A stretch of 64,000 nt of DNA, taken from positions 248,001-312,000 of the forward strand of contig JBFLJU010000001.1 of NCBI GenBank assembly GCA_040743155.1, written 5' to 3'. The stretch comes from Cycloclasticus sp. (GTDB taxonomy: Bacteria; Pseudomonadota; Gammaproteobacteria; Methylococcales; Cycloclasticaceae). The position numbers were made by a program, and so were the translations under genes. The notes beneath the pieces are model-generated. The model worked only from the letters and a program-made list of their open reading frames with translations. It did no database searches and had not been told where the DNA came from. Below are positions 14,366 through 41,900 of the stretch, piece by piece. Positions within the stretch are counted from its first letter, which is position 1. Every line of letters begins with the position of its first letter.

Positions 14366-15187
14366 CTAATTAGGTGTTAATGCCTGTTCTTCAAGCCAGT
14401 TATTAATAGTGTCGGCACTTTCGTGCCAATGTGCGTCAATCATCATCGTGTGGCCGGTTTTTTTCATATTGATGTAATCAGCGTTATAAGCTTTGGCTGT
14501 TTTTTTGATGTGCGCCGGTCTAAAGAAGGTATCTTCATCCGCACTGAGGGCCAACATCGGAATCTCAAAAGGATTTTTGTAAGTGGGTAGGCCAAGCCAC
14601 AGGGTGTCCAACAAGGCTTTGGGCGAACCTTGCTGCATTTCTGCGCAATAACGAATGACGACTTCATCGTTAACATGGCCAGAAAAAACAGATTTACGAG
14701 TAACGTCAACGGGTGAAAACCAGGTGCCCATGAGTTCGCTCAGGTTCATTTGCATATAAAAAGTAGGGGTTAACGCCAAATCGATGATAGATGGGATCAG
14801 GCCATCAACGGGTACGCTAGCCATGAGTATGCATGCGGGGACAGTTTTATTTTCAATATACTTTTGAATGATGAGCCCGCCCAATGAATGACCGACAAGA
14901 ATAGGTGGTTCGCCAATTTCATCAATAACTCGTTGAATGTCAGTAACATAGTCAGCAATGCTGTTTGAAGCAAGCATGGCGCTGCCGCCACTTTGGCCAT
15001 GCCCACGTAAGTTAATGGCATAGGTAGGGTGCCCAAGGTCAGCGAAGAAAGGCATAAAGTATTCATTCCAGCACCAAGCAGACATATTGGCGCCATGAAT
15101 AAATAAAATAGGCTTGCGAGTTGCTTTATTAGGGTGTCGCTCGATGACTTCTAGTGCAGGGTTGGCTGCTGAATATTTAATTTTCAT
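14366..15187 (-). CDS. Alpha/beta hydrolase
   Basis: The 273-residue protein has the alpha/beta hydrolase fold: oxyanion-hole region FIHGANMSAWCW (~30), NLRGHGQSGG (~60), nucleophile elbow VGHSLGG (~105), a probable acid in LALSADEDTFF (~222) and the catalytic His in KKTGHTMMIDAHW (~250). No signal peptide is present, so it is cytoplasmic. It could be an esterase, lipase or ring-fission-product hydrolase; the sequence does not give the substrate. Stand-alone gene, with the AT-rich region at 15188-15281 upstream of it. Confidence 0.75.
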   Translation of the reverse strand: MKIKYSAANPALEVIERHPNKATRKPILFIHGANMSAWCWNEYFMPFFADLGHPTYAINLRGHGQSGGSAMLASNSIADYVTDIQRVIDEIGEPPILVGHSLGGLIIQKYIENKTVPACILMASVPVDGLIPSIIDLALTPTFYMQMNLSELMGTWFSPVDVTRKSVFSGHVNDEVVIRYCAEMQQGSPKALLDTLWLGLPTYKNPFEIPMLALSADEDTFFRPAHIKKTAKAYNADYINMKKTGHTMMIDAHWHESADTINNWLEEQALTPN

Positions 15188-15281: not shown

Positions 15282-15310
15282 TTGACAAATGGTGCGGAGC
15301 AATATATCAT
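15282..15310 (+). promoter_or_regulatory. Near-consensus sigma70 promoter
   Basis: TTGACA (15282-15287, a perfect -35) and TATCAT (15305-15310, 5 of 6 to consensus) are separated by exactly 17 bp. The expected transcription start is near 15317. No coding frame follows before the terminator at 15379-15406. Confidence 0.7.
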
Positions 15311-15316
15311 GTGGTT

Positions 15317-15406
15317 TCATTGTTACTGCAATACTGTTCTCAGTTTATTGCGCAATGTAATAATGTTCTCCTCCTCTTGGCGACTCTTTATGGGTCGCTT
15401 TTTTTT
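15317..15406 (+). ncRNA. Candidate ~90-nt small RNA with anti-Shine-Dalgarno segment
   Basis: Transcription from the promoter at 15282-15310 would give about 90 nt. The first part folds into a hairpin at 15319-15364: outer stem of 8 pairs (15319-15326 with 15357-15364), an inner 6-pair stem, and a large loop. A single-stranded CU-rich stretch follows (15365-15378, containing CTCCTCCTC, complementary to Shine-Dalgarno sequences), then the terminator hairpin. This three-part layout is typical of trans-acting sRNAs. It might instead be an attenuated leader of the gene at 15552. I do not recognise it as a known family. Confidence 0.5.
15379..15406 (+). terminator. Rho-independent terminator of the candidate small RNA
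   Basis: GCGAC (15380-15384) pairs with GTCGC (15394-15398). G-T and further pairs extend the stem to about 8 bp around a 5-nt loop. An uninterrupted T8 run follows at 15399-15406. Confidence 0.8.
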
Positions 15407-15551
15407 GCCTTGTATTCTAAACTCTAAACTCACTTAAGGCTGTGTTTTAATCTAAATAATATTAGAAATGAATTAAGATGAGCTTTTGAAGGGCGTTATC
15501 TTTTTTATGTGATTCATCATGAGTTAATAGATTAGAGGGTATGTTTAAGAG

Positions 15552-16733
15552 ATGAAAGGTATTTTAATAGTACAACGTTTGGTTTTGTGCTCATGTTGGT
15601 TGATAACAGGCTACTCTAGCGGTGTTTTTGCGGACAGCGTTAGCGTTAAAATGGGTTTCTTAACCGAGCAAACACCAACGCCACCTGCGCTATCTAATCT
15701 TGATTCAATTCTAACCGATGAAGGTATTCAGGGCGCTGTTTTAGGCATTAGCGATAACAATAGAACAGGGCAGTTTACTGGGCACGACTATCATTTGAAG
15801 CACGAATCGGTGCCGGTTGGTGGAAATGTCTTACAGGCATTTGATCGACTACTAAGAGAGGGCTATCAATACGTGATTGCTGATGTGCGGGCGTCAACGT
15901 TGAAAAAGTTATCGCCGATTGCACTGGCGAACAAGGTCTTATTATTTAATGCGTCATCTACGGACGTTGAACTGAGAAATGCCAGTTGTGGCGCAAATAC
16001 TTTTCATATGATTCCAAGTGATGCGATGAAGGCTGATGCGCTCGCGCAATTTATGTTCAAAAAACGCTGGAAGAAGTGGTACATGGTGAGAGGAAAAGAT
16101 GAAAAGGATCTCAACTTTACCCGTGCTATTAAACGAGCCGCAAAACGTTTTGGCATTAACGTTGTAGAAGAAAAGGTCTGGAATTTTGATCATGATGCTC
16201 GGCGAACGGCTCAGGCAGACATTCCGGTTTTTACCCAAGGTAGCGATTATGATGTTTTAGTAGTAGCAGATGTGAAAGGGCTGTTTGGTGAGTATTTGGC
16301 GATGAACACTTGGCTACCGAGACCTATTATTGGCACGCAGGGCTTGGTGCCGAGAGCGTGGCACAGAACACACGAACGTTGGGGCGCTGTGCAAATGCAA
16401 AATAGGTTTTATGAGCAAGCCGGCCGTTGGATGAACGATGTGGATTATTCGTCTTGGCTCGCGGTACGCGCGGTGGGTGAAGCTGTAACACGGACGGAGA
16501 ATACAACCCCAAAAGAGGTGAAGGCTTTTTTGCTGGGCGACGAATTTAGTTTAGCGGGTTTTAAAGGGGTAAAGCTGACGTTTAGAGGCTGGAATCATCA
16601 GTTACGACAGCCTATATTATTAGCAATGCCACGGTCTATTGTGTCGGTGATGCCACATAAAGAGTTTCTACATCCGCGTACTTATTTAGATACGCTGGGG
16701 TATGATAAGCCCGAATCTAAATGCCAGTTTTAA
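15552..16733 (+). CDS. ABC transporter substrate-binding protein of the PQQ-alcohol-dehydrogenase-associated system
   Basis: The 393-residue protein has an N-terminal signal sequence (hydrophobic to about residue 25, ending near VFA-DSV) and a periplasmic binding fold of the branched-chain amino acid/leucine-binding type. It corresponds to the family named for PQQ-dependent alcohol dehydrogenase systems (TIGR03863, from memory), called PedA1-like in Pseudomonas putida. It is first of four genes with a beta-propeller, an ABC ATPase and an ABC-2 permease. The ligand is unknown. An importer-style binding protein beside an exporter-style permease is typical of this cluster but unexplained. Confidence 0.8.
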   Translation: MKGILIVQRLVLCSCWLITGYSSGVFADSVSVKMGFLTEQTPTPPALSNLDSILTDEGIQGAVLGISDNNRTGQFTGHDYHLKHESVPVGGNVLQAFDRLLREGYQYVIADVRASTLKKLSPIALANKVLLFNASSTDVELRNASCGANTFHMIPSDAMKADALAQFMFKKRWKKWYMVRGKDEKDLNFTRAIKRAAKRFGINVVEEKVWNFDHDARRTAQADIPVFTQGSDYDVLVVADVKGLFGEYLAMNTWLPRPIIGTQGLVPRAWHRTHERWGAVQMQNRFYEQAGRWMNDVDYSSWLAVRAVGEAVTRTENTTPKEVKAFLLGDEFSLAGFKGVKLTFRGWNHQLRQPILLAMPRSIVSVMPHKEFLHPRTYLDTLGYDKPESKCQF

Positions 16734-38932: not shown

Positions 38933-41900
38933 ATGAGTAAAGTACGCTTATTTGGGCATTCCCTGCTATGGCTTTTTACGGTCAGCATAGCTGTCCTTGC
39001 GGTATTAGTCGTTGGTGTACGGTTTGTCTTAACAGACGTAGCATCGTACAAAAATGACCTTGAAGTTTATCTGAGTCAACAGCTTGGTGGACAAGTTCAT
39101 CTGCAAGACATGTCCGCCAAAATGGACGGTTTTAAACCACAGCTGAGTTTAACGGGTATCACATTAGACGAACTGAATAAGCCAGCAAAAACACTCAGTA
39201 TTGGAGAAATCCGCGTCTCGTTTAATCCGCTTGGGTTTATAACGGGGCACATTGTGCCAAGCCAAATAATCATCGTTAATACCAGCATTAAGATAAAGCG
39301 GTTTGCTGATGGGCATGTGTCGATCGATGGTTTATCGAGTGATAAAAAAGATGAAAACACCTCTGGTGATTTTTCCTGGCTACTAGAGGGGGAGAAATTT
39401 GAGGTCGTCAATAGTCAGATTACTTGGCAAGATGATATGTTAGATTTGCCTGATGTTAGCTTAAACAGCGCACATATCATCTTTCAAAATAATGGCCAAG
39501 AACATGCGTTAAAAGTGACGGCTAAGCTGCCAGAAGAAACAGGGGGCGAGTTTGTTTTAGCAATTAATTTGATGGGCGATGTTTTGTCGACTAACGATTG
39601 GCAAGCTAAAGGCTACTTTAAAGGAAAAGGTATCGATGTTGCGAAACACTTGTCGCGATTAAAAATAGATGGGCTGTCTATTAATCAAGGTGAGGGTGAT
39701 ATTGAGTTATGGAGTACTTGGGAAGCGGCGCGGTTATCGCAAGTAAAAGGTAATGTGTTAGTACGAAAAGCACACCTTAAACAAGATGGGAAGGAGCTTG
39801 ATGTAACAAACGTCACGGGTAACTTTGACTGGCAGAAAACATTAAATGGCTGGAAGATAAAGGCGCAAGACTTTGCCTATGAAACAAAAGCTAACACGCA
39901 AGAAAAGAGTCAATTTAGCGCGAAATATAGTGCAGGAAAAGATGGCGACTTATCGATTAAAGCATCGGCTCAAGGAATCGACTTGGCAGCCATCTCAGAC
40001 CTCTTACAGCATTCAACAATTTTAGGAAGTGAGCCTGCCACATTACTTGATGAGCTTAATGTAAGAGGCTTGTTAAAAGAACTAAACGTTTCTATCAATA
40101 GTAATGCCGATTCAATGCTATGGGCAGCTTGCGGGGCGTTACAAGGGTTTTCGAGTGATGTTCATAAAACAGTTCCGGCCATTAATAATTTTACTGGAGA
40201 GGGCTGTTCTACTCAAGATGAAGGGTGGTTAAGTATTGATACCAATAAGGGCTCTGCGCACTTTAAGAACTTATTTCGCGAGCCTATCCTCGTTGATAAA
40301 ATGGCGGGTCAGCTGACATGGACGCATAATAACGATGCTTGGGTAATAAACTCTGACTATATCAGTTTGAACTCACCACATATTAGTACACAGCTGCGTA
40401 TAAATATGCGGTTCCCGGAAGGGGGGCAGTCGCCAACCATCGATTTGCAGTCGATTTTTGGTCAGGCCGATGCTCGCTTCACGTCTCTTTATTTACCAGT
40501 GGGTATCATGAATAAAGGCCTAGTTGATTGGCTTGGTGCTGCCTTCGTAGAGGGTCAAACAAAAGGCGGTGGATTGCTCTTAAAAGGCCAATTATCTGAT
40601 TTTCCATATCGTCAAAAAGCGGGGCTTTTTCAGGTTTTATTCAGTACAAAAGGTGTTCAATTACACTACGCAGATCAGTGGCCAGATGTCATGGGTGCGG
40701 CGGCTAATATTGAATTTAAAAATGAAGGCATGAGTATTATTGGTAGCCAAGGCATTATTTCGGGTAACAAAACTGATTATGTGCTGGTCGATATTGCAGA
40801 CTTTAAAAGAAATAAGTATTTAAATATTTCGGGCAAAATTGATGGTGATATTAGCGGCTTATATACCTTTTTTAAACAGTCACCAATAAAAGAACATGTC
40901 GGTACGCTATTGGATCATAGTGCCGTTTCAGGCCCAGCCATAATAGACCTCAATATTCAGGTTCCTTTGGAAAAGAAACTTAATACTAAAGTTAGTGCAA
41001 CGGCGCGGATATTAGGAGGTGCACTATCACTCCCAGACGTGGATCTTGTTATTAGTCATATTCAAGGTGAATTTAACTATGGGGCAGAGGGCTTAAGTGG
41101 GCAATCTATTAAAGCCCAGTTATTGGAGCAAAAGCTAGAGGTCGACATTACAGATAAAAAAAACAGCACGGTTATTTTAGCTAAGGGCCAGATGCATGTG
41201 GCGAGTGTAGCCAAAAAATATCCGTCTGACCTATGGCAGTATATTAGTGGCAACAGTTTAGCTAATATAAAAGTTAGTCTTCCACACAGTGGTTTGACAG
41301 GCGGTGGCTCATCGACGATTACTGTTAATAGCAACCTCAAGGGAATAGCCGTCGATTTGCCGGAGCCGGCCGGCAAGCAAAAAAATACGATAATACCTTC
41401 TAAAGTTGAGATTTCGCTAGGCGAAAAATCGTTGCCTATTAAGGTGTCGTATGGCAATGAGATAAAAGCTAAAATTCAATTTTCTGAGAGCTCTTCTCAG
41501 AAGCTTTCGTTTGAAAAAGCGGATATTCACTTCGGTAAAACAGAGGCAAGTTTGCCTGCAACGCCGGGTGTTAGCCTGTCTGGAACACTGGATAAATTGG
41601 ACGTGAAATCTTGGATAAACGTGATAAGTGCCGAACAAAAAAGCTCGGTGAGTCCAACTATCTTTAATCAGTTTAAGCTTCATATTAAAAAATTAAATTG
41701 GCTGGATGCAGCATTTGATGAGTTGCGTGTGATGGGGCGGCATAAAGACTCAGCTTGGTCAGGAGAAGTGGGCAGTCCCTTAGTTGTAGGTCGATATCAC
41801 GTGCCCGATAATTTGACTGCTGGGAATAAGATTAGCCTTGAATTGGAAACATTGACCATACCGTCTAATGAAGAGCAAACATTGAGCAATAAGGAATCGC

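Follow-up and report, generated by a model that had tools for sequence, protein, structure and literature searches.

The locus at positions 15282 to 15406 of the window (the whole stretch of 64,000 nucleotides that was analysed) is, in our assessment, quite likely to be an independent gene for a trans-acting anti-Shine-Dalgarno small RNA (sRNA) of ~90 nt, which has a sponge-like partner RNA elsewhere in the order. What the sequences themselves show is the gene anatomy, its conservation, covariation and spread, and a partner that is complementary to the sRNA and linked to it convergently. The order, very probably the Methylococcales of GTDB, includes methane oxidisers and hydrocarbon degraders, and Cycloclasticus is its marine, oil-degrading member considered here.

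The host genome is complete (2.56 Mb) and carries a single copy of the sRNA gene. The element is flanked by an alpha/beta-hydrolase gene (14366-15187, minus strand), which is divergent from it, and by the gene at 15552-16733, which encodes a periplasmic binding-like protein and leads a cluster that also encodes a YncE-type beta-propeller and an ABC transporter. The relatives of this binding-protein gene include proteins of ~40% identity in Grimontia and Enterovibrio. The layout of promoter, hairpin, CU-rich stretch and terminator that was proposed in the initial annotation is present in all its parts, from TTGACA-17-TATCAT to the run of eight T. The promoter is of the sigma-70 type (15282-15310, plus strand; promoter scan and genus alignment), with TTGACA at 15282-15287 as the -35 and TATCAT at 15305-15310 as the -10 element, separated by 17 nt. 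It matches 11 of 12 consensus positions and is the top promoter-like site in 2.6 kb. An overlapping TATA element (15303-15308, plus strand) is also kept in the genus, the promoters of which include TTGAC in 15 of 16 sequences and TAT-A at the -10 region in all 16. The promoter spacer contains the conserved dyad ATNNTGCNNNGCANTAT (15289-15305, no strand assigned), which the genus alignment marks as a likely transcription-factor site and candidate operator. Its core, TGC-N3-GCA, is intact in 14 of the 16 genus promoters, the symmetric positions are 88-100% kept, and the outline of the dyad is present between the promoter hexamers in every genus member; within the window, 15289-15305 is the sole perfect match to ATNNTGCNNNGCANTAT. 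A similar element, TGCNNNGCA, is visible in sequences of family f7.

Based on promoter, fold, terminator and conservation, a transcript of ~90 nt is predicted at about 15317-15406 on the plus strand. It would begin with a 5' hairpin (SL1; 15318-15365), supported by the fold and by compensatory changes; the hairpin had been recognised before, and its length is corrected here from 46 to 48 nt. The lower stem of SL1, CAUUGUUAC/GUAAUAAUG, is conserved, and its apical part is variable yet paired. The hairpin is followed by the unpaired CU-rich segment UUCUCCUCCUCUU (15366-15378, plus strand), the proposed anti-Shine-Dalgarno seed, which is characterized by its identity and unpaired probability, and by an intrinsic terminator (15379-15406, plus strand; fold and covariation) with the stem GGCGACUC/GGGUCGCU and 8 T, comprising a GC hairpin at 15379-15399 and a T-run at 15399-15406. 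The reading frames that overlap the sRNA are chance ones, the longest having 57 codons and a start upstream of the promoter. Of the features by which a trans-acting sRNA is generally recognised, the locus has a promoter and an intrinsic terminator to itself, the lack of a conserved reading frame, and a conserved fold with an unpaired seed.

The predicted minimum free energy of the 101-nt stretch is -29.8 kcal/mol, as compared with -14.7 +/- 2.5 kcal/mol for 200 shuffled sequences (z = -6.1), none of which was as stable as the native one. The results from BLAST analyses place the sRNA gene in 15 of 17 other Cycloclasticus genomes, and the two genomes that lack a match are incomplete. Among the 16 genus sequences the mean pairwise identity is 93% for the CU segment, 87-90% for the arms of SL1 and 86% for the terminator, so that within the sRNA conservation is highest in the CU segment, while the apical part of SL1 (46%) and the spacer to the gene at 15552 (33%) are the less conserved parts of the locus. 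In all 16 homologues the CU segment is predicted to be unpaired, with a mean probability of 0.78-0.99. The stems covary, 97% of the alignment cells being paired (92-98% in SL1 and 99% in the terminator), and seven pairs show changes on both sides; none of 500 shuffles reached the observed values, and structures slid along the alignment fell far below them. Thus both stems and the CU segment pass the comparison with relatives that had been suggested, and fold, promoter and conservation agree with the plan of a trans-acting sRNA with an exposed anti-Shine-Dalgarno segment. On these comparative grounds the locus is confirmed as real, beyond chance, because it is present genus-wide, its stems carry compensatory changes, and the CU segment is conserved far above the spacer.

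A covariance model built on the 3' module of the sRNA (R1) also finds terminator-only matches elsewhere in the genomes, which speaks for reading the element as no more than a terminator that is conserved along with its CU-rich approach, and not as a functional small RNA. We hold this to be very improbable. The element has its own promoter, the covariation of SL1 contradicts such a reading, the upstream gene is divergent and so provides no transcript to be terminated there, and the conservation of the CU segment exceeds that of the terminator.

The sRNA is not restricted to the genus. BLAST analysis with its 3' half reached other families too, with matches in seven more genomes of the order, and in the alignment TTCTCCTCCTC is retained amid variable surroundings. 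Of 251 genomes of the order, 133 have a match to R1 at a cut-off of E 0.01 or better, and 37 of 48 genera are represented among them; this count is an upper estimate, because the matches are strong in families f1 (that of Cycloclasticus), f4, f6 and f7 while f8 contributes many weak ones (25-36 bits), which are partly terminator-only. The f8 forms include UAUCCUUCUC or AUCCUCCUC in place of UCUCCUCCUC, and several f8 genomes harbour tandem copies ~200 bp apart (L070, L071, L072, L073, L074, L075), in the manner of sibling sRNAs. A second UCCUCCUC is present in the 5' part of many f8 copies. In the genome of the window a second R1 match (C1:1422325) was rejected as an sRNA copy, since its CU motif is degenerate and only its terminator is good. 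Among 370 genomes sampled from the class, 22 matched R1 with E values up to 0.001, and 18 of the 22 lie outside the order. Two of these genomes (G432 and G589; L106-L110), from family f156 of another order, have 2-4 copies each of the look-alike UCUCCUCCUCUUGGCCGACC...GGUCGGC-T8, and these may be either homologous to the sRNA of the order or convergent with it; the remaining matches outside the order look like terminators.

A search of Rfam with the sRNA gave no match at the gathering score and chance-level matches only below it. RF01404 (PinT) scored 17.9 bits (E value 0.29) against a gathering score of 60 bits, and the RF02278 model did not match the sRNA of the window even at E 10. The suggestion that the RNA may be new is in line with these results, and, as far as Rfam and the literature search show, the family is probably undescribed. 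Sequence analysis of the same genome also pointed to a second candidate sRNA (L199; G000 C1 ~2532173, plus strand of the contig) beside an apparent polA gene; the candidate consists of the hairpin CUUGCUCA-N-UGAGCAAG with a UCUCCCCCUCCCCUU loop, and a GCCCUAGG terminator with T8. This candidate recalls sX13 of Xanthomonas, which is located downstream of polA.

Among known RNAs, NmsRA and NmsRB of Neisseria meningitidis (PMC5362039) likewise have an exposed UC-rich anti-Shine-Dalgarno stretch after the first hairpin and an intrinsic terminator, and their CU-rich seeds are established to act on ribosome-binding sites. They have three stem-loops, two anti-Shine-Dalgarno motifs and two tandem copies, whereas the Cycloclasticus sRNA is single-copy, with two hairpins and one CU segment, and here the tandem siblings have a counterpart in f8 only. 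The likeness is one of architecture, and the sRNA lacks the features that define an NmsR. Support for the same mode of action exists for the double-hairpin RNAs of Burkholderia (PMC5688073). The betaproteobacterial 'toxic small RNAs' of RF02278 described there (57-92 nt) share with our sRNA two hairpins and unpaired CU-rich stretches complementary to ribosome-binding sites, and are present in several copies per genome, as are the f8 sRNAs. The Xanthomonas sX13 (PMC3771888) also employs C-rich unpaired motifs, which act on G-rich sites near translation starts, but it differs in having three C-rich apical loops, in its location downstream of polA and in its restriction to the Xanthomonadaceae.

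The location of the gene bears on the alternative, raised in the initial annotation, of an attenuated leader for the PQQ-associated cluster that starts at 15552, in which most transcripts would end at the T8 hairpin and some would read through under a signal. The sRNA does precede a homologous substrate-binding-protein gene of this cluster in f1, in f7 and in two members of f4, and the plus strand of 15407-15551 yielded no promoter-like site. However, a cis-acting leader would keep a constant place ahead of the operon that it regulates, and the location of the module differs among families: it has a TonB-receptor gene upstream in f6, and unrelated genes beside it in the other f4 members and in f8. 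In two f4 loci (L062, L068) an opposite-strand RNA with its own terminator separates the module from the cluster. Moreover, the 146-nt spacer in Cycloclasticus is variable in length as well as in sequence, and there is no conserved alternative antiterminator pairing. We therefore regard the attenuator as improbable. An autonomous gene fits all the location data, as judged from the varied neighbours, the intervening transcription unit in f4 and the unconserved spacer.

We infer that the sRNA pairs with mRNAs. A target analysis covered the 61 translation starts of the window, i.e., ~2% of the genome, with orthologues in up to five relatives and letter-shuffled seeds for comparison. As a group, these starts were no better partners for the CU segment than for the shuffled seeds; since only 2% of the genome was covered, this does not rule out targets. 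The ribosome site of acuI (AGGAGAA), which had been proposed as a target, ranked 7th of 61 by pairing energy; acuI is present in only three of the compared genomes and is unremarkable as a target. In the whole genome no 12-nt match to the CU segment was found besides the sRNA gene itself, and the remaining matches were mostly coding or due to chance; targets, if any, would thus pair over shorter stretches. Four near matches to the 12-mer among long complements were set aside because all are in or beside coding sequence, complements of 11 nt with wobbles allowed gave nothing sponge-like, and AGAGGGGGAGAA at 39385-39396 of the window, considered as a sponge site, is inside a reading frame of 1299 codons. 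Compared with the initial annotation, the case from conservation is stronger, and both the acuI proposal and the leader alternative are weaker.

A second RNA was seen on scanning the sRNA-flanking DNA of relatives. It carries CAAAGAGGAGGAG on the opposite strand and is complementary to the CU segment. It belongs to a conserved transcription unit whose features are two boxes, one TTGGACA-like and one TAGACT, two hairpins, the first of them with an A-N-GGA loop, the unpaired GAGGAGGA, AAYAAY repeats and a GCCCGC-GCGGGC terminator; the unit has no conserved reading frame, and there is no family for it in Rfam. Of the 251 genomes of the order, 75 hold this single-copy RNA by the model R2, made from sequence only, and 94 by R3, which includes the first hairpin; the R3 matches fall in 31 of 48 genera. 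The families concerned are f2, f4, f5, f6, f7 and f8 (L142-L171, L172-L176, L237-L268). In the class sample R3 matched members of the order only, with none of 365 genomes outside it. In 18 Cycloclasticus genomes neither model found the partner under permissive filters, the only matches being antisense of the sRNA or coding, and the genus seems to be without it. Of the 29 genomes tabulated for f4, f6 and f7, 24 have the partner convergent with the sRNA gene and no more than 300 bp away; in f7 it lies next to the sRNA gene but is divergent from it, and in f8 it is unlinked.

The complementary run covers the CU segment together with the 5' arm of the terminator stem in the sRNA, the proposed pairing segments being CUCCUCCUC/GAGGAGGAG. 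It amounts to 16 pairs in f6, 8-20 in f4, 18 in f7 and about 9-15 in f8, where a lower estimate gives about 9-10 with wobbles and one genome (G182) has a perfect match of 14 nt; the runs in f4, f6 and f7 mostly exceed those of letter shuffles. The partner therefore has the extended complementarity to a seed, within an unpaired region, that is characteristic of sponges. By pairing energy, own sRNA-partner pairs were better than permutations made across the families (0 of 20000). Over swaps within a family they had no advantage, given that the GGA core does not vary. The energy test was therefore not accepted as proof of coevolution, as family structure explains the signal and f8 sRNAs pair equally well with f4 partners. 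A compensatory-looking change, UAAUCC/GGAUUA versus UUAUCC/GGAUAA in genus g37, is one case only and was likewise set aside. Direct pairing between the two RNAs is nevertheless strongly suggested by the length, conservation and linkage of the complementary segments.

In nearly all members, SL1 of the partner displays the A-N-GGA loop; an additional GGAGGA faces the CU segment. The partner resembles CsrA/RsmA-binding RNAs. It is conceivable that mRNAs are not what the CU segment acts on, and that its ancestral and main role is antisense pairing with the partner, which the sRNA would regulate and which bears hairpins of the CsrA/RsmA type with GGA in the loop. The GGA loop and the facing GGAGGA are consistent with this, as are the convergent linkage, the long complementarity and the lack of target enrichment in the window, yet we consider it unlikely: the CU segment is held at its high identity in Cycloclasticus though no partner was found there, and f8 genomes have several sRNA copies per single partner.

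Returning to the anti-Shine-Dalgarno sRNA with a sponge-like partner, we infer transcription, Hfq binding, mRNA repression and sponge action as follows. A regulated sigma-70 promoter would start the sRNA, the 5' hairpin would shield its end, and the terminator hairpin with its U-tail would serve as the handle for Hfq, which is encoded in the genome. The unpaired UUCUCCUCCUCUU would pair with purine-rich ribosome-binding sites and block translation. In most other families the partner, which has CAAAGAGGAGGAG and AAYAAY repeats of the Hfq type and is equipped with a separate promoter and terminator, may titrate the sRNA as a sponge, masking the CU segment and invading the terminator stem. Sponges of sibling sRNAs have been established for CrfA-Sis (PMC12559287) and QrrX-Qrr (cited in PMC12559287). 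In both CrfA with SisA-D of Caulobacter and QrrX with the Qrr RNAs of Vibrio a dedicated RNA masks the mRNA-pairing site of sibling sRNAs, as the candidate sponge would do; unlike these, the candidate, whose action is putative, is usually convergent beside the sRNA gene and is conserved through the order.

If this is true, a regulator that targets ribosome-binding sites and is retained across the order would exert control at a global level. What is new here is a single-copy partner RNA of the order that is complementary to the CU segment. Somewhat short of probable, but worth proposing tentatively, is an order-wide duo in which CU-rich sRNAs of the anti-Shine-Dalgarno kind are accompanied, usually tail-to-tail, by a single-copy sponge dedicated to them. 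Through GGA hairpins of the CsrA type and AAY repeats of the Hfq type this sponge could connect the networks of Hfq and Csr, and Cycloclasticus would have kept the sRNA of the duo and lost the sponge. A co-encoded sponge in the other families, together with a genus that is naturally sponge-free, would offer a ready comparison for the purpose of sRNA sponges.
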